NCBI RefSeq assembly: GCF_002117145.1
Contig: NZ_CP008743.1
Location: 868,001-932,000, forward strand
DNA length: 64,000 nucleotides
Origin: Candidatus Nucleicultrix amoebiphila FS5
GTDB lineage: Bacteria; Pseudomonadota; Alphaproteobacteria; Caedimonadales; Nucleicultricaceae
Direction of reading: 5' to 3'
The translations under genes were made by a program, and so were the position numbers. Within the stretch, counting starts at the first letter, position 1. Every line of letters starts with the position of its first letter. The notes beneath the pieces were generated by a model that was given only the letters and a program-made list of their open reading frames with translations, ran no database searches and had not been told where the DNA came from. Of the stretch, positions 639-61,589 are shown in pieces.

Positions 639-2564
639 TTAAGACCCAGGCTGTCCTTGAGGATCCAATTTTGATGGACGGATACGCGTTGAACTCTTGC
701 GTGGAGGCGTAGAGTTTTTGGGCTTATCCATTGGTTTTGTTTTGGGAGTTTGCTTACGATCCAGTTTATCCCCACTCAAAATCTTTTTAATTTCATCGCC
801 TGAAAGGGTTTCATATTCCAACAAAGCTTTTGCTAATAAATGCAGTTTATCTTTGTTATCCTGAAGAACCTTTGTTGCTGCCTTATACGCTGTGTCAACA
901 ATACGCTTGGTTTCCTCATCAATAATCTGTGCCGTTGCTTCAGAAAACTGTTTTGTATGCCCCCCACCCATTGCAAACATGTCTTGATTCTGTGAGCCAT
1001 ACTTAAGAGGCCCTAACTTTTCGCTCATACCCCATTCAGTCACCATACGTCGTGCAATCTCTGTTGCATGATTAATATCAGAAGACGCACCTGTTGTTAC
1101 TTTATCAGGCCCAAAAATCATTTCCTCAGCAATACGTCCTCCCATGGCGACTTCAAGATCAGCCATTAGCTTACTTTTAGCCATGGACACTCGATCTGTT
1201 TCAGGTAAACGTACCACCATACCCAAAGCGCGTCCTCTAGGAATAATCGTGGCTTTATGAATTGGATCAGAATTTGGATTATAAAACCCAACAATCGCAT
1301 GACCACCTTCATGGTATGCCGTTAGCTTTTTTTCTTCATCAGTCATCACCATCGAACGTCGTTCGGGGCCCATCATGACTTTATCTTTAGCTTCTTCGAA
1401 ATCAACCATAGAAACAACACGCTTATTTTGACGTGCCGCAATCAGAGCAGCCTCATTCACGAGATTAGCTAAATCAGCACCTGAAAACCCAGGTGTACCT
1501 TGAGCAATCACTACGACTTTTACATCTGGCCCTAACGGTACTTTGCCCATATGTACTTTCAAAATCCCTTCACGGCCTTTTATATCTGGTAAAGGAACAA
1601 CCACTTGACGATCAAAACGACCGGGACGTAAAAGAGCTGGATCCAAAACATCAGGACGGTTCGTAGCAGCAATTAAAATAACGCCTTCATTGGACTCAAA
1701 GCCATCCATTTCCACGAGCAGCTGGTTGAGAGTTTGTTCACGTTCATCATTGCCTCCTCCTAACCCTACACCACGATGACGGCCGACAGCGTCTATTTCA
1801 TCAATAAAAATGATACAGGGTGCATTTTTTTTCCCTTGCTCAAAAAGATCACGCACGCGACTTGCCCCCACCCCCACGAACATCTCAACGAAATCGGATC
1901 CTGAGATAGAAAAGAAAGGCACATTGGCTTCACCAGCAATAGCACGCGCTAAAAGAGTTTTACCTGTACCAGGAGGCCCCACAAGCAGCACGCCTTTTGG
2001 AATCTTACCACCAAGCTTCTGGAATTTATGAGGATCTTTTAGAAAATCAACGACTTCTCGAACCTCATCTTTAGCTTCATCACAGCCAGAAACATCATTG
2101 AATGTAACTTTTCCCGCTTTTTCAGAAAGCAATCTCGCTTTAGATTTTCCAAAACCCAAAGCCTTGTTGCTGCCTGCTTGCATTTGACGCATAAACAGTA
2201 CCCATATACCAATAAAGAGCAACATAGGAAACCATGATAATAAAACACCCAAAAAGGAACTTCCTTCTGACTCAGCAGGTCCTGCAGACACACGAACTCC
2301 TTTGTCCGTCAACTTTTGAACCAAAGTAGGATCACTGGGTGCATAGGATGAGAACGTACGGCCATCCTCAAGACGGCCAGCAATGGCGTTGCCTTTAATG
2401 ATGACTTCTCTTACTGAACCTTTATCAACATCATCTAGAAAATCAGAATACGCGAGATTCACGTTAGACGATTGACTACGTCCACCCTGAAACATATTGA
2501 ATAGACCTATTAAAAAAAGCCCAGCGATAATCCACAAAATTATGTTGCGACCGTAATTATTCAC
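639..2564 (-). CDS. ftsH: ATP-dependent zinc metalloprotease FtsH
   Basis: Membrane-anchored AAA+ protease that removes misassembled membrane proteins and short-lived regulators. The 641-residue product has a first membrane segment at about residues 8-26, a periplasmic loop, and a second segment at about 107-125. The AAA domain follows with Walker A GPPGTGKT (196-203), Walker B IIFIDEID (251-258) and a second region of homology ending RPGRFDR. The zinc site HEGGH lies near 418-422. The C-terminus is Pro/Lys/Ser-rich and probably disordered. The start is GTG, with an AGGA motif about seven bases upstream. It lies directly downstream of tilS, as in many alphaproteobacteria. Confidence 0.98.
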
Positions 2565-51696: not shown

Positions 51697-51782
51697 CGCC
51701 CTCGATCTTAAATTTGTTTCTTATTACTTCCTAGCGCCAATAAGTTGACAGCGCAAATCCAAAAATCTATGCTGCAGTATAT

Positions 51783-51865
51783 TCTCATCGGGGTGCCCAT
51801 AGGGGGCTGAGAGGTTTTCCAACCCGTGAACCTGAACCAGATAATGCTGGCGGAGGAAATTGAGA
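51783..51865 (+). promoter_or_regulatory. TPP riboswitch (THI box) in the leader of the MFS transporter gene
   Basis: The conserved core is clear: GGGGTGCCC at 51790, GGCTGAGAGG at 51805, AACCCGTGAACCTGAACCAG at 51821, then ATAATGCTGGCGGAGGAAA at 51841. The final GGAGG is also the ribosome-binding site of the gene that starts at 51865. An outer stem can form between TCTCA (51783-51787) and TGAGA (51861-51865), which would take in the first base of the ATG. TPP binding should therefore block translation initiation. The core match is certain; the outer pairing is my inference. Confidence 0.95.
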
Positions 51866-53178
51866 TGACAACCATCTATTCTGATACTATTACTTATCAT
51901 TCAAAGGTCTACGGCCGTAAACATCGCTACAGTATTATTATTGGCAATCTGCTAGAGCATTTTGATTCATCCCTTTATGGCTTTTTAGCGCCTATTTTAG
52001 GGAAACTATTTTTCCCCAATTTTTCGCCCCTTTACCAGCTGATCTTAACATACAGTGTTTTTGCAGTTACTTTTATTGCGCGACCTTTAGGCGGTGTATT
52101 TTTTAGCAAATTGACCTATCGCTATGGTCCTTTAAAGGCTCTCTCTTGGACACTTATTGGTGTTGCCCTTGCCACAGGCCTTATGGGGCTAATCCCTGGA
52201 GCAGAACAAATTGGTATCTTGGCGCCCATTCTTTTAGTAAGCACGCGCTTTTTTCAGAGTTTTTGCGCGGCTGGCGAAAATACCATTGCGGGATATTATC
52301 TTATAGAAAAATGCCAAAAGCACCAGCAAGTCCCCTTAACCAGCATTTATCAAAGCTCAACGGTTTTGGGAATCCTAGCAGCTTCGTCGTTGAGTGCTTT
52401 AATTGTCGCCTCTCCCGATTCTCAGAATTTATGGCGTATACCCTTTATTATTGGCTTTCTCGTGGGACTTTGCGGTTTGTGGATGCGATTTCAGTTAAAA
52501 GACGATCGCCCTCTCTCCGCTTTCAACATTGCCTTACCTTATGGGGCGTTCTTAAAGCGCATTAAAGCTAACTACAAACTGATTATTTGCTTTATCCCCA
52601 TTTACGGGCTTTCATATTTAACCTATTCATTTATTTTTGTTTTTTTGAATCCCTATCTTCCGCAAATCAGCTCTCTTTCTCTGCCAAGTCTTATGAACCA
52701 GTCGAGTAGTCTGCTATGGCTCGACGCCCTTATTATGCCACTGGTTGCGCTCACGATCAGGCAATTGAATTGGCAACGTGTGATGATTGGATGCGCTTTG
52801 TTATTCTTAGTAAGCACTTGCGCCCTTCTTGGCTTTTTCCAGGGGCTATCGCTTATGGAAGTCTTTATTTGGCGCGCATTGATGGTTATTGGTGGCGTTG
52901 GTTTTTCTGCTGCTTTAATTCCTTGGGCTGCTAGCATTTTTCCTGATCAAGATAAATATCTTATCCACAGTATCAGTTATGCCATCGGATCTGAGACCTT
53001 TGGACGTACGACTCCCGCCATTTGTCTTTGGATTTATAGCTTAACGAATCATCCTTCAAGCCCATTGCTCTATGTTGCAGGGGTGATCTTTATGACTTTT
53101 TGTTGTTTTGGCTATTTATATCGCACCTCAGAGAATCAATCCGTTGACGCAAGCCAGTTTTCCCTAGACAAGCTTTAG
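51865..53178 (+). CDS. MFS transporter under TPP riboswitch control, candidate thiamine importer
   Basis: A 437-residue polytopic membrane protein of the major facilitator superfamily, with about twelve membrane segments. The metabolite:H+ symporter-like features IGNLLEHFDSSLYGFLAPI (first helix) and FIARPLGGVFF (between helices 2 and 3) are present. Placement under a TPP riboswitch suggests import of thiamine or a precursor. The family alone would not tell the substrate. The start is the ATG at 51865, which uses the riboswitch GGAGG as ribosome site; an in-frame upstream ATG at 51826 lies inside the riboswitch and is rejected. Confidence 0.85.
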   Translation: MTTIYSDTITYHSKVYGRKHRYSIIIGNLLEHFDSSLYGFLAPILGKLFFPNFSPLYQLILTYSVFAVTFIARPLGGVFFSKLTYRYGPLKALSWTLIGVALATGLMGLIPGAEQIGILAPILLVSTRFFQSFCAAGENTIAGYYLIEKCQKHQQVPLTSIYQSSTVLGILAASSLSALIVASPDSQNLWRIPFIIGFLVGLCGLWMRFQLKDDRPLSAFNIALPYGAFLKRIKANYKLIICFIPIYGLSYLTYSFIFVFLNPYLPQISSLSLPSLMNQSSSLLWLDALIMPLVALTIRQLNWQRVMIGCALLFLVSTCALLGFFQGLSLMEVFIWRALMVIGGVGFSAALIPWAASIFPDQDKYLIHSISYAIGSETFGRTTPAICLWIYSLTNHPSSPLLYVAGVIFMTFCCFGYLYRTSENQSVDASQFSLDKL

Positions 53179-54302: not shown

Positions 54303-55442
54303 ATGACATTTGGCAGTTTTAAAGAAATTTCTGGGCATGGAGAAAGCTACAAATGCTATGTGCCAGGCCACTTAACCAAAAATCTCATCGATATCAGTAA
54401 GTTTCAAGGACTCCTTGATCAAGCCAATCAAGCGTTAGGTAGAATTGACGCGCTCTCTGAATTCATACCCGATATCACTCTCTTTATCTATTTGTACGTA
54501 AGAAAAGAAGCTCTCCTGTCTTCTCAGATTGAAGGAACGCAATCTTCTCTCGCTGACCTCTTTATGTTCGAAAACAATCTCTCTCCTTCTGTAGCAGCAT
54601 CGGATGTAGAAGAAGTAACCAATTATGTAAATGCCATCAATTATGGTCTAAAAAGGATCCAGGAACTCCCCTTCTCTCTAAGGCTCATTAAAGAAATCCA
54701 TAAGGTCTTAATGAAAGGTGTGAGAGGGCAAGATAAAAACCCTGGTGAGTTTCGAATCTCTCAGAATTGGATAGGAGGAAGCCGTCCTGGTAATGCATTG
54801 TATGTTCCTCCTTCCCCTGATTTGGTTATTCCTCTCATGGGCGATCTTGAAAAATTTATTCATTTGGAAGATGCGGGACTTCCCGCTTTAATTAAAATTG
54901 CATTCACTCACGTTCAATTTGAAAGCATCCATCCTTTCCTCGATGGCAACGGAAGAATTGGAAGATTACTTGTGACTTTGTTATTGTGTAACTGGAAAAT
55001 TCTAAAACATCCCGTTTTATATATCAGTTATTTTCTCAAAGCAGAGAGACAAAAGTATTATGACTTATTACAAAAATTAAGAATGGAGAATGATTGGGAC
55101 AGTTGGATTTCATTCTTCTTAAAAGGTATTATTGAATCATGCCAAGATGAAATCTTTGCTACAAAACGTCTCTTAAAAACCCTGCAGGAAGACACACAAA
55201 AAATATCAAGTTTAAGATCTGGCGCAGTAAGAGACGTGTTTGACCATCTCAAAAAACATCCCGTTACAAATATCCCAACAATAAGTGCTCATTTAAAAAT
55301 TACGCAACATACTGTCCTGTCGGCATTAAACAAATTGGAAGAGATGAACATTGTGAGGGAAATCACAGGAAAACAAAGAGGCAAGATTTATACTTATGAT
55401 AAGTATATTCATATTCTTTCCGAGGGGACTGAGCCTTTGTAG
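54303..55442 (+). CDS. Fic-family AMP-transferase-like protein with internal inhibitory motif and C-terminal winged helix
   Basis: A 379-residue Fic protein. The catalytic motif HPFLDGNGRIGR lies at residues 210-221, with the catalytic His and the Mg-binding Asp present. The N-terminal domain carries the inhibitory motif SSQIEG at residues 73-78, matching the (S/T)xxxE(G/N) of self-inhibited Fic enzymes (class II arrangement, inhibitory helix N-terminal). The C-terminal part (about 300-370) looks like a winged helix, with ISAHLKITQHTVLSALNKLEEMNIVREI. It could thus bind its own operator repeats. AMPylation is expected from the motif; the target is unknown. Confidence 0.9.
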   Translation: MTFGSFKEISGHGESYKCYVPGHLTKNLIDISKFQGLLDQANQALGRIDALSEFIPDITLFIYLYVRKEALLSSQIEGTQSSLADLFMFENNLSPSVAASDVEEVTNYVNAINYGLKRIQELPFSLRLIKEIHKVLMKGVRGQDKNPGEFRISQNWIGGSRPGNALYVPPSPDLVIPLMGDLEKFIHLEDAGLPALIKIAFTHVQFESIHPFLDGNGRIGRLLVTLLLCNWKILKHPVLYISYFLKAERQKYYDLLQKLRMENDWDSWISFFLKGIIESCQDEIFATKRLLKTLQEDTQKISSLRSGAVRDVFDHLKKHPVTNIPTISAHLKITQHTVLSALNKLEEMNIVREITGKQRGKIYTYDKYIHILSEGTEPL

Positions 55443-55579: not shown

Positions 55580-55712
55580 GTGCATATAATACGCAATTAT
55601 TCCCACATTAAGGGTATTACTGCGCTTTATATGCACTAATTCAGTTGCATTAAGTATATTACATATGTCATTATTCTTATATTAGTGGAATTACTGCGAT
55701 TATAATGTACTA
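55580..55712. promoter_or_regulatory. Nested repeats upstream of abiEi, probable autoregulatory operator
   Basis: A large inverted repeat (55580-55595 against 55621-55636; 14 of 16 bases pair, starting GTGCATATAA) has a 25-base loop. A 43-base segment is repeated directly with 74-base spacing (55596-55638 and 55670-55712; both contain TTACTGCG and end ACTA). The second copy ends at the ATG of abiEi. AbiEi proteins studied elsewhere repress their own promoter by binding inverted repeats, so this is the expected operator. Confidence 0.6.
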
Positions 55713-56512
55713 TGTCTACCATATCAGGTCTTGGAAAATTAGATAGGGAGCAACTTTCATCAATTTTGAGGGAAGCAGAAAACGTCATTTCAGTTGAACA
55801 AGCCTCTGAAATTTTAGGAGTTTCTCGACACCTAGCTGGAAAGCAATTAGCTCGATGGTGCAGCAAAGGATGGTTATCTCGCATTAAACGAGGGGTGTAT
55901 ATCCCTGTTCCCCTAGAATCAAAAGTGACTGATGTATCTTTAGAAGATCCATGGATCATCGCAGAAAAGTTATATAGACCTTGCTATGTTGGAGGTTGGA
56001 GTGCAGGAGAATACTGGGGGCTAACAGAGCAAATTTTCCGAACCCTTCTCATTAAAACAACCCAAAAACCGCGCAACCTTCATCCAGTAATGAACGGTAC
56101 ACCCTTTATGCTTATTACAACCTCTCCAAATGCAATGTTTGGGTTGAAACCTGTGTGGAGAGGCCAGATTAAGGTTATGGTATCGGACCCCACGCGAACC
56201 ATTATAGATTTTTTGGTTGACCCTAAAATTGGGGGGGGAATTCGAACAACAACAGATATGCTGAAGGAATATTTGCAATCTGAGCATAAGAATCTTTCTT
56301 TAATGATTGAATATGCTACCCAACTTGCTAATGGAGCTGTTTTCAAGAGGTTGGGATTTTTACTAGAAATGTGTGTTCCTGAAGAAACGGCAACTATTGA
56401 AGCTTGTTCAAAACATCTAACTAAAGGAAAAAGCAAGCTGGACCCTCAATTGAGCGCAGATAAGCTCATAACAAAATGGCGTTTGTGGATACCGGCTAAC
56501 TGGAAATACTAA
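55712..56512 (+). CDS. AbiEi-type antitoxin (type IV toxin-antitoxin)
   Basis: Antitoxin and repressor of an AbiE system. The 266-residue protein opens with a winged helix-turn-helix (SVEQASEILGVSRHLAGKQLARWCSKGWLSRI), followed by KRGVYIPVPLE and a C-terminal domain with YRPCYVGGWSAGEYWGLTEQ, the pattern of AbiEi-family proteins. The start ATG lies within the repeat region. The toxin gene follows one base after the stop. In known AbiE pairs the antitoxin acts on the toxin's effect without direct binding, hence type IV; this is family knowledge. Confidence 0.88.
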   Translation: MSTISGLGKLDREQLSSILREAENVISVEQASEILGVSRHLAGKQLARWCSKGWLSRIKRGVYIPVPLESKVTDVSLEDPWIIAEKLYRPCYVGGWSAGEYWGLTEQIFRTLLIKTTQKPRNLHPVMNGTPFMLITTSPNAMFGLKPVWRGQIKVMVSDPTRTIIDFLVDPKIGGGIRTTTDMLKEYLQSEHKNLSLMIEYATQLANGAVFKRLGFLLEMCVPEETATIEACSKHLTKGKSKLDPQLSADKLITKWRLWIPANWKY

Positions 56513-56513
56513 C

Positions 56514-57719
56514 ATGATCTCTAACAAAAATTTAATGACCTTAGCAGGGGAATTTAGCCTAGATGTGAATGTAGTCGAGAAGGACTACGTACTTGGTTGG
56601 TTACTCGCTGCAATTAATAACCATCGTTTCTTATCTAATAAGTGGATCTTCAAAGGAGGAACATGCCTTAAAAAATGCTATTTTGAGACCTATCGTTTTT
56701 CTGAAGACTTAGACTACACACTAATTGATGAAAGCCAAATTGACGTTGATTTCTTGACGATGTGCTTTAATGATATTGCACCATGGCTTTATGACGTTGT
56801 TGGAATTGAGATTCCCAAAGAAACCATTCAATTCAAAATTAGAGATAATAAAAGGTCTGCTGAAGGAAAGGTTGGCTATATAGGGCCTATGCAGCGTAGA
56901 CGTGCTCCTGCTCGCATAAAATTAGATTTAACTGTGAATGAACTTGTTGTAACAAGCCCAGACCTACGATTAGTTCACCATCCATACAAAGACAATCCAG
57001 AAAGTGGCATTAAAAGTTATTGCTATAGTTTTCCAGAAATTTTTGCCGAGAAGCTAAGAGCATTGGGTGAGCGGGCACGACCAAGAGATTTATATGATGT
57101 CATTCATCTTTTTCGCCATGCTAACCAGGCTGAAACTGGCGAACAGGTCTTTGAAGTTCTCAAGAAGAAATGCGAATTCAAATCCATTTCTGTTCCCACC
57201 CTAACCTTTATGGAAAACCATCCTAAAAGAGACGAACTCAGAGCAGAATGGGAAAACATGTTAGGCCATCAGCTTCCTGCCTTGCCGAATTTAGATGATT
57301 TCTGGCAAGAGTTGCCCAACGTTTTTAATTGGTTGGAAGGTAAAGGCAATAAACTAAAATTGGATTTGTTCCCATTCCAGAAGAAGGATATGGACCTCAC
57401 TTGGCAACCGCCAAGCATGATTAGCCCCTGGAACACAACAATACCTTTAGAATTAATTCGTTATGCTGCAGCGAATCACTTATGCGTGGAAATAACATAC
57501 AAAAAGAAAGATCAAACAATTAAAAACTATTTAATTGAACCATACGAATTAAAAAGAACAAAAGATAGAAAACTATTGTTATTTGCAGTTAAGCTTCCTT
57601 CAAATGAGCCAAGGTCATTTTTAATTGAAGGCATCCAAAGTGTAAAAGCAACCGAGAAGCACTTTACTCCTCAGTATTTTATTGGATTGACGCCTTTCTC
57701 GTTGGGCCGTTCAACCTAA
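56514..57719 (+). CDS. AbiEii-type nucleotidyltransferase toxin with a C-terminal WYL-like domain
   Basis: A 401-residue protein. The nucleotidyltransferase core is clear: FKGGTCLKK near residues 46-54, the metal-binding SEDLDYTL at 63-70, and AEKLRALGERARPRDLYDVIHL near 175-200. AbiEii homologues transfer nucleotides to tRNA 3' ends and stop growth. Most end soon after about residue 280. Here a further part from about 310 to 390 (LIRYAAANHLCVEITYKKK, IEPYELKRTKDRKLLLFAVKL, SFLIEGIQSVKATEKHF) matches the WYL-domain pattern, a ligand-sensing fold in defence regulators. The AbiEii call is firm; the WYL call is by motif. Confidence 0.87.
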   Translation: MISNKNLMTLAGEFSLDVNVVEKDYVLGWLLAAINNHRFLSNKWIFKGGTCLKKCYFETYRFSEDLDYTLIDESQIDVDFLTMCFNDIAPWLYDVVGIEIPKETIQFKIRDNKRSAEGKVGYIGPMQRRRAPARIKLDLTVNELVVTSPDLRLVHHPYKDNPESGIKSYCYSFPEIFAEKLRALGERARPRDLYDVIHLFRHANQAETGEQVFEVLKKKCEFKSISVPTLTFMENHPKRDELRAEWENMLGHQLPALPNLDDFWQELPNVFNWLEGKGNKLKLDLFPFQKKDMDLTWQPPSMISPWNTTIPLELIRYAAANHLCVEITYKKKDQTIKNYLIEPYELKRTKDRKLLLFAVKLPSNEPRSFLIEGIQSVKATEKHFTPQYFIGLTPFSLGRST

Positions 57720-59228: not shown

Positions 59229-59397
59229 GGTTAATGCGTGAATATCACGGGTTAGTTTGTCCTTAATATGCTTTCAATTTTATTAAGGATAAATTAACCA
59301 CTCCTCTCTAATACTAATTTAACTCTTAGGGTAACAATATCTCCGTATCTGAGAGTATTGAAAAATATTCATCGTATAAATCAGGAGGACTTTCATC

Positions 59398-60246
59398 ATG
59401 TTAGCTCAAGCTCAACCTAAACCTTCAAATCAAAGCGATCCATCTTGGTGGTGGCAGAATCAGGCATCTTCTCGTGCATGGCAAAACCAAGCCCCACAGT
59501 GGTGGTGGCAGAATCAAGCGCCTCAATGGTGGAATTGGCAACATCAAGCCCCCCAACAATGGCATGGCTGGCAGAATCAAGCCCCACAGTGGTGGAACTG
59601 GAATAATCAAGCTCCTCAACAATGGAACAGTTGGCAAAACCAAGCAAACCCCAATTGGTGGTGGCAGAACCAAGCCCCCCAACAGTGGCATGGCTGGCAG
59701 AATCAAGCCCCACAGTGGTGGAACTGGAATAATCAAGCTCCTCAACAATGGAACAGTTGGCAAAACCAAGCAAACCCCAGTTGGTGGTGGCAGAACCAAG
59801 CCCCTCAAGCATGGTGGAATCCAGCATGGAAAGAAGATAATGTAAAAAATTTTCCCGGCTATGGTGGTGGTGATGGACCTGGGTCAAATAATCCTTGGCC
59901 AGCTAATGGGTGGCAAAGTTGGAATTTTTACAAAGGAGAAGGGGCCTGGTGGGCTTCTCAAGGGTTCGCTGTTAAGTATTGGGATAATGACACGGAAACA
60001 ACTATTGAATGCTATATCCCCGGTATTAATGCTGAAAATTGTGAACTAACAACATTTGGAAATGACGTCAGGATTCGTCTTGTTGGTCAAGAAAATCAAG
60101 GCTACATCAATCTTTCTCTTCCTCCTTATGCTGATACAACGCGCATAGCCGCAACTGCTGCTAAGGAGCTTTTGAAGATTACTGTTCCGACACGTGCAGA
60201 AATCACAAGCAACATTAAAAAATTCAAGCCTAGCAAGGCTAAATAA
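59398..60246 (+). CDS. Trp/Gln/Asn-repeat protein with a C-terminal Hsp20-like domain
   Basis: A 282-residue protein in two parts. Residues about 15-145 are repeats rich in Trp, Gln, Asn, Ala and Pro, with units such as WQNQAPQWW and NNQAPQQWNS. A Gly-rich stretch (about 155-175) follows. The C-terminal part (about 185-282) resembles an alpha-crystallin/Hsp20 domain: TIECYIPGINAENCELTTFGNDVRI matches the ADLPG-type block, and LSLPPYADTTRIAATAAKELLKITVP matches the final LP..vd...i.A...G.L.I..P block. No signal peptide is seen. AGGAGG precedes the ATG by nine bases. I know of no named family with this layout. Confidence 0.8.
   Translation: MLAQAQPKPSNQSDPSWWWQNQASSRAWQNQAPQWWWQNQAPQWWNWQHQAPQQWHGWQNQAPQWWNWNNQAPQQWNSWQNQANPNWWWQNQAPQQWHGWQNQAPQWWNWNNQAPQQWNSWQNQANPSWWWQNQAPQAWWNPAWKEDNVKNFPGYGGGDGPGSNNPWPANGWQSWNFYKGEGAWWASQGFAVKYWDNDTETTIECYIPGINAENCELTTFGNDVRIRLVGQENQGYINLSLPPYADTTRIAATAAKELLKITVPTRAEITSNIKKFKPSKAK
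59541..59810 (+). repeat. 126-base tandem DNA repeat inside the Trp/Gln-repeat gene
   Basis: Two consecutive copies with a period of 126 bases (42 codons) are almost identical: for example GCCCCACAGTGG occurs at 59581 and 59707, and CAAGCCCCCC at 59545 and 59671. Within each copy are shorter, less exact repeats of about 9-11 codons. Near-identity at synonymous positions indicates a recent duplication, so the copy number is likely to vary between strains. Confidence 0.9.
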
Positions 60247-60256
60247 AGAAACTCAT

Positions 60257-60293
60257 AAAAAAGGCTGAACCCATGAAGAGCTCAGCCTTTTTT
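60257..60293 (+). terminator. Rho-independent terminator after the Trp/Gln-repeat gene
   Basis: AAAAAAGGCTGA (60257-60268) pairs perfectly with TCAGCCTTTTTT (60282-60293) around a 13-base loop. It begins 11 bases after the stop codon. The A run at the foot of the stem also makes it usable from the opposite strand. Confidence 0.85.
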
Positions 60294-60338
60294 GTATAGA
60301 GTTAACAAGAACATATATATTTAGAATTCATAGTAAAA

Positions 60339-61589
60339 ATGAAGAAAATACTCTTATTGTGTGCAGTACTAGAAACTTTTTTATCAACACCTGTTTTTTC
60401 TTCTGCTATTGGAATAACGCCAGATCCTGGACAGCACATATTCCAAAATGTCACAAAAATAGATGATGGACTATATACATCTCCTATGACAGATCAACCA
60501 GGGTTACGTCTTGTCATGGAGAAAATTACTGGCTTTAATATAGTTGCATGGAAAAAATATCTTGAAGTTCAAAACGCTCCTCGCGTAGTAGGCGCAGTAA
60601 AAAGTTTAGTAACTGGCACAGGGAAACACGTACAAAAAGGTAATATATCTGATGGCTCTGGCTATGCGCTTAGAGTTTTAAACAGTGTTTCAATAGAATC
60701 AAATGAAGTGTGGATGGCTTACATCACATCAGATTCAACGGCACGTCACATAACACTGCCCATCGATTATCAAGCAGGAAGAGAATATATGTTTCGAGAT
60801 AAAAGCTCTTTCCCCTACAATCTTAAAATGTATATGACAGTGACTTCTTCTCCTAATGCTTTGCTCACATCACACCTTGGCATAACGGTATCTGCCGAAG
60901 GTGTTTTCACTGGACGACCAAAGGGAGTTTCCGTAGATTTGCATGCCTTTGCAGCTAAAGTTATGTTGATAAGAAACCCTAAACGTCGCTTCATGGTCAA
61001 CGCTCCCGTTGAAGCCATGACGCAAATTTTGACGAAAGCGTTGCCTTCGGATTCTCTTTCTATGGGAACAAGAGAAATGCAAGATCATATAAAAAAGTAT
61101 GATTATATGGAATTAAGCGAATTAAAGGAACAACACCCAGAAATTTATCAAAAAATTCTAGAAAAAAGCAAACAAGAAACAGATCGAGAAATGGAAAAGC
61201 TTTCTATCAATGAAGCTGAAAGAAAAGGAGTATACGATAGACTTTTGCAAAAAAATTTGCACGAGTCTTTCGAAGAGTTTAAAACGCCTTGGAATTGGGA
61301 CAACGTCCACAAAGAAGCACCAGGCGACTTAGAGATGCAACGCATACTGTCTCGTGAGAAAATGCACAAGCGTATGAGTGATCATCCTCCTATTATTTCT
61401 ACCCAGGGAAAAAGTTTAACATCAATGAGTCACGGGATAACCATTTCTCACCCGGCTTCTCAATTTCACTTGGAAGTTAAGAAAGGCGATAAAGATTACA
61501 ATTGGCTTTCTACAAGAGTCTTTGATCCTGCTACGTCTGCGCAGCATCCAATAGCAGTGGACTTAAATAAATTAGCCCATTCAAAATAA
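60339..61589 (+). CDS. Exported protein of unknown function
   Basis: I do not recognise this 416-residue protein. It starts with a signal peptide (MKKILLLCAVLETFLSTPVFSSA, cleavage likely near residue 21-23). A mostly beta-rich N-terminal half runs to about residue 220. A highly charged helical region with coiled-coil character (ELKEQHPEIYQKILEKS and MEKLSINEAERKGVY) lies at about 245-330. A His/Ser-rich C-terminal part follows. Export and lack of enzymatic motifs fit a structural, adhesive or host-directed protein, but this is speculation. It follows a terminator, so it has its own promoter. Confidence 0.7.
   Translation: MKKILLLCAVLETFLSTPVFSSAIGITPDPGQHIFQNVTKIDDGLYTSPMTDQPGLRLVMEKITGFNIVAWKKYLEVQNAPRVVGAVKSLVTGTGKHVQKGNISDGSGYALRVLNSVSIESNEVWMAYITSDSTARHITLPIDYQAGREYMFRDKSSFPYNLKMYMTVTSSPNALLTSHLGITVSAEGVFTGRPKGVSVDLHAFAAKVMLIRNPKRRFMVNAPVEAMTQILTKALPSDSLSMGTREMQDHIKKYDYMELSELKEQHPEIYQKILEKSKQETDREMEKLSINEAERKGVYDRLLQKNLHESFEEFKTPWNWDNVHKEAPGDLEMQRILSREKMHKRMSDHPPIISTQGKSLTSMSHGITISHPASQFHLEVKKGDKDYNWLSTRVFDPATSAQHPIAVDLNKLAHSK

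Follow-up and report, generated by a model that had tools for sequence, protein, structure and literature searches.

Small heat-shock proteins (sHSPs) commonly follow a logic in which the N-terminal arm serves the chaperone through oligomerisation and client capture. Their N-terminal regions are generally disordered and enriched in aromatic residues (PMC11855743). In yeast, the aggregase activity of Hsp42 depends on an N-terminal extension that combines a prion-like domain with a disordered region (PMC13287201). According to a 2025 review, Hsp42 has no homologue in bacteria (PMC11855743), and we found no bacterial prion-like sHSP described in the literature that we searched.

The window, by which we mean the whole stretch of 64,000 nucleotides analysed here, encodes a protein of 282 amino acids (59398..60246, + strand, ATG start) in which a putatively prion-like arm precedes an Hsp20/alpha-crystallin domain (ACD). 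The protein resembles Hsp42 in this order of a disordered prion-like extension and an ACD (PMC13287201, PMC11855743), and yeast, like the genome of the window, has more than one sHSP per cell. It differs from Hsp42 in being bacterial, in having tandem Trp/Gln/Asn units of 9–11 residues, and in lacking a loop of beta6 length, the beta7 Arg, and the IXI motif. We expect no sequence relation between the two arms and claim no common descent; the nearest relatives that we found are bacterial. The reading that we favour, and to which we give an even chance, is that of a divergent bacterial sHSP whose prion-like arm would drive assembly and client sequestration by analogy with Hsp42. An earlier note on this DNA knew of no described family with this architecture. 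That was overstated, given the precedent of yeast Hsp42 (PMC13287201). However, the review places no Hsp42 homologue in bacteria (PMC11855743), and the window protein scores below the cut-off of every model in Pfam and NCBIfam.

The gene and its repeat arm

The gene looks like a transcription unit of its own because it has both a strong Shine-Dalgarno sequence (AGGAGG, 59383..59388, +, 9 nt 5' of the ATG, read directly from the sequence) and a strong intrinsic terminator, a stem-loop followed by a U run (60255..60295, +; −16.9 kcal/mol and z = −4.6 by fold computation). The loop of the terminator exceeds 8 nt; a simple scan missed the stem-loop and folding found it. The ribosome site, the terminator, and the intact frame on which the earlier note had relied are all present. 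A chance ORF or a frame artefact was ruled out by the C-terminal homologues, the codon-position pattern, the Shine-Dalgarno sequence, and the terminator. The antisense ORF at 59417-59887 (−) was considered a shadow cast by the repeat and not a gene. On one side the gene has a gene for a FadL-type outer-membrane protein and on the other an unknown gene. Directly 3' of it, 60339-61589 (+) encodes a protein of 416 aa whose start resembles a signal peptide and which has no Pfam family. We found no heat-shock-type promoter 5' of the gene: CTTG-N-CYTAT has no match in its vicinity, and matches across the window occur at chance level.

Composition, repeat units, and the full-length AlphaFold model delimit the arm as residues 1–145 (59398..59832, +). 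Its main residues are Q (26.2%), W (22.8%), N (15.9%), A (11.7%), and P (10.3%), and it is nearly uncharged (3 Lys/Arg, 1 Asp/Glu). When the 51 window ORFs that reach 150 aa or more (ATG to stop, six frames) are compared, the whole protein ranks first by far both in Trp (13.8%; the next has 3.6% and the mean is 1.6%) and in Asn plus Gln (27.7%; the next has 11.1%). Autocorrelation against composition shuffles gives z values of 5.0 at lag 10, 9.7 at lag 21, and 10.8 at lag 42: the arm is organised in a unit of 10/11 residues, a pair of 21, and a block of 42. Cutting it at [N/H]QA yields units of 9, 10, or 11 residues, such as PQWWNWNNQA and PQQWNSWQNQA. Composition and periodicity thus agree with the low-complexity Trp/Gln/Asn/Ala/Pro array in units of 9–11 residues that had been noticed earlier. 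Residues 52–93 (59551..59676, +) and 94–135 (59677..59802, +) form a tandem duplication of 42 codons that differs at 2 of 126 bases. The other units of equal length show 40, 24, and 84 differences at codon positions 1, 2, and 3 (these comparisons are not independent), a third-position excess that fits selection on the protein.

In the full-length model, almost all of residues 1–144 have a pLDDT <50, and residues 1–172 combine low pLDDT with almost no structural elements. The arm is followed by a linker rich in Gly, Asn, and Trp (residues 146–187, 59833..59958, +), recognised by composition and with mostly low pLDDT. Judged on composition alone, the arm would be a prion-like extension ahead of the ACD. 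The protein is probably cytoplasmic because a hydrophobic signal sequence is absent, Ile, Leu, and Val making up 1% of residues 1–191. Residues 1–187 match no known repeat family in Pfam or NCBIfam, and searches of its own genome and of eight others gave no further copies of the arm. A search of 385 genomes of the class gave weak matches only (E of about 1e-3 to 7e-3 over 35–41 residues), which we set aside because composition alone yields such scores.

The arm might also belong to an ordinary sHSP, expanded neutrally by replication slippage and with no function beyond that of a normal arm. This would account for the recent duplication of 42 codons and for the completely different arm sequences of the relatives described below, and disordered, aromatic-enriched N-terminal regions are in any case general among sHSPs (PMC11855743). 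We nevertheless consider it quite unlikely. The arm has retained 33 Trp in 145 codons, though TGG is a single mutational step from a stop codon; the differences between units are concentrated at third codon positions; and a separate array of 11-residue units containing Trp recurs in a relative from another order (L003).

The C-terminal domain

The domain that we assign to the ACD covers residues ~188–266 (59959..60195, +), as indicated by model, profiles, and alignment. By itself, the window sequence scores 13.2–15.7 bits against PF00011, below the cut-off of 20.8 (residues 147–282 reach 15.7 bits with Pfam HSP20). Single-sequence AlphaFold, used with no alignment on the 107 C-terminal residues, produced a model with nine strands (pTM 0.62, mean pLDDT 70). 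The top 11 Foldseek matches of this model were sHSPs, and VIA-align matched it to a Xylella Hsp20 with a Z of 9.6 and an rmsd of 2.2 over 78 residues. CS/p23-like domains (Sgt1, Ncb5or) have a similar fold, with VIA Z values of 8.8–9.0, and also have a short loop in place of beta6. We favour Hsp20 over CS/p23 because the sequence profiles point to the former. The Pfam matches up to E=10 include HSP20 but no CS model. A profile of the four-member family matches MjHSP16.5 at 2.7e-4, with PDB matches that are mostly sHSPs, and picks up ordinary Hsp20s across the phylum at up to 1.3e-9. One relative, L006, passes PF00011 alone (24.9 bits, cut-off 20.8).

By predicted fold and by profile, the C-terminal half is a genuine Hsp20/ACD and the protein belongs to the Hsp20/ACD superfamily; it also has the variable, disordered N-terminal region ahead of the ACD that is a feature of this superfamily. 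The proposal of an Hsp20-like C-terminal half survived the refutation test that the earlier note had set for it, as the model shows an alpha-crystallin fold with sHSPs as top matches. With bacterial Hsp20s of PF00011 (IbpA/HspA type), the protein shares the ACD fold, the closing A...(N/D)..L.I..P block, and profile homology. It differs from the ordinary Hsp20s compared in the length of its arm, ~187 residues including the linker versus ~36–53.

The window protein departs from typical bacterial sHSPs in having lost three features that normally help to organise them: the beta6 loop, the beta7 Arg, and the IXI motif. The beta6 strand is swapped for dimerisation in bacterial, archaeal, fungal, and plant sHSPs (PMC11855743). 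Between beta5 and beta7, the four family members have 11 (window protein), 17, 19, and 20 residues versus 25–27 in ordinary Hsp20s, so that the strand is missing or vestigial in the family; the AlphaFold model of the window protein has no strand between beta5 and beta7. All four family members lack the Arg of beta7 (R107 of MjHSP16.5), which contributes to the quaternary organisation of MjHSP16.5 (PMC3638399). Of the seven ordinary Hsp20s compared, six carry it and L017 has His in its place. About 90% of sHSPs have an IXI/V motif (PMC11855743), and the IXI motif is required for oligomerisation of MjHSP16.5 (PMC3638399). At this position, in the C-terminal extension (residues 267–282, 60196..60243, +), the alignment has F-K-P in the window protein and I-K-V in L006. 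We do not place the window protein in the bacterial-type, beta6-swapped subgroup of sHSPs. Metazoan sHSPs also have no separate beta6 strand (PMC11855743), but their extended beta6+7 strand and conserved Arg are not evident in the window protein.

Relatives, their arms and their genomes

Among 57 related genomes, we found two relatives, L002 (E 3e-18) and L003 (2.5e-16), both from a single genome within the window's class. A profile of these first members identified a third, L006, across 385 genomes of the class. The family totals four proteins in 3 of the 385 sampled genomes. In the tree, these proteins group as a single clade (100/99 support) that excludes the two ordinary Hsp20s also encoded by the window protein's own genome. 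L006 is the sole Hsp20 match in its genome. The family is absent from the other 9 genomes of the window's order, from 2 other genomes of the family of L002 and L003, and from 16 other genomes of the order of L006. GTDB-220 contigs, viral contigs, plasmids, and phages gave no relatives; this absence is weak because pattern scans require exact short matches.

All four members have a long low-complexity N-terminal arm, the sequence of which differs completely between relatives while the C-terminus is conserved. The arm of the window protein has, in the family comparison, 36% N+Q, 22.5% aromatic, and 5% charged residues. Those of L002 and L006 are rich in N/Q/G/S/T, with 6.3% and 1.7% of charged residues, respectively, whereas the arm of L003 has only 8.7% N+Q and 14% charge. 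The relatives' arms are also far less Trp-rich (1.2–3.6%). The term 'prion-like' consequently fits the members unequally. L003 carries an in-frame tandem array of the 11-residue Trp unit TWDKPAYQSIP (33 bp x 4.5). Its open frame extends 5' of the first ATG, through the array and into the contig end, and the start of the array lies beyond the contig. The array is probably translated, since the frame is open and the junction looks similar by eye (NPAWKED in the window protein, TPVWKDM in L003). Two orders thus have an 11-residue array containing Trp ahead of the ACD, but the sequences of the units differ.

The patchy distribution of the family in small genomes (1.8–2.0 Mb, a size that suggests intracellular symbionts) and the very fast divergence of the N-terminus next to a conserved C-terminus would fit a protein that is delivered into a eukaryotic host or is active inside one, and whose repeat would be a host-facing, fast-evolving module stabilised by the ACD. 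Such a role is very unlikely in our view, as we see neither a signal peptide nor a transmembrane segment in the window protein, and its sHSP domain is of the ordinary, cytoplasmic kind.

The window gene and its relatives have no gene neighbourhood in common. The relatives adjoin metabolic or stress genes: msrA/msrB, a gene for a CBS protein, and TerC. The msrA and msrB genes (PF01625, PF01641; 927-2050, −, of the L003 locus) lie beside the relative, a possible link to oxidative stress, and a second short tandem repeat with SEIRDQR units is found near the relative's gene at 2059-2250 (+). In the window's own genome, one of the ordinary Hsp20 genes adjoins a gene (L012 1895-2836, −) whose 313-aa product has a tail of tandem TTTPAGD.

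These neighbourhoods also bear on a structural role, for which the Hsp20-like spore-coat proteins of Bacillus offer a comparison. In a resistant or infective form of the cell, the arm would then make up a stable inclusion or matrix, with the ACD co-opted as an assembly module and not acting as a chaperone. The loss of normal sHSP contacts, the two ordinary Hsp20s already present in the genome, the failure to find a heat-shock promoter, and repeats that can change length through duplication are all compatible with this. We regard it as doubtful because the ACD fold and its core residues are kept, the relatives lie beside metabolic and stress genes and not in structural operons, and no known coat family was matched in Pfam or NCBIfam.

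Proposed mechanism and other loci of the window

If the protein is a divergent sHSP with an Hsp42-like arm, as we favour, stacking of the arm's Trp residues and hydrogen bonding of its Gln and Asn would lead to self-association into gel-like or condensed assemblies. The arm would capture unfolded proteins, and the ACD would give specificity and keep the deposits accessible to disaggregating chaperones. The outcome would be a sequestrase ('aggregase') resembling yeast Hsp42 and separately evolved. A long, sticky arm next to an ACD with weak contacts should make assembly arm-dependent; self-assembly and client capture by the window protein are suggested here by analogy. The ACD might also cap or control assemblies made by the repeat, as the earlier note proposed. 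Because the genome has two ordinary Hsp20s, the window protein need not carry out protein quality control. More tentatively, and at somewhat less than an even chance, the four proteins may represent a patchy family of bacterial prion-like sHSPs in which the oligomer contacts of the ACD were given up and a fast-evolving repeat arm took over assembly, resulting in an independently evolved sequestrase or condensate scaffold with material properties set by repeat number.

Among sHSPs, aggregase activity that works through a prion-like arm is known from a single yeast protein. The Trp/Gln/Asn arm of a bacterial sHSP would make it simple to test whether such an arm suffices to turn an ACD into a sequestrase. 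Its naturally occurring repeat units, together with the dissimilar arms of the relatives, make up a ready-made series for 'sticker and spacer' studies of Trp, a residue that, to our knowledge, is seldom used in natural low-complexity domains.

Several other loci of the window deserve mention. An AbiEi/AbiEii-type toxin-antitoxin pair is encoded at 55712-57719 (+). Its AbiEii protein has an extra C-terminal WYL domain (residues 312–378, just above the Pfam cut-off), which is, as far as we know, an unusual addition. A protein with the Fic motif HPFLDGNGRIGR is encoded at 54303-55442 (+), just 3' of two tRNA genes (Cys, Asn) and 5' of the AbiE pair, and may mark a small island. Finally, a TPP riboswitch (51779-51876, +; Rfam RF00059, 59.3 bits) overlaps the listed GTG start (51826) of an ORF for a 450-aa MFS-like transporter. 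The true start of this transporter, which may carry thiamine or a precursor, is probably further downstream.
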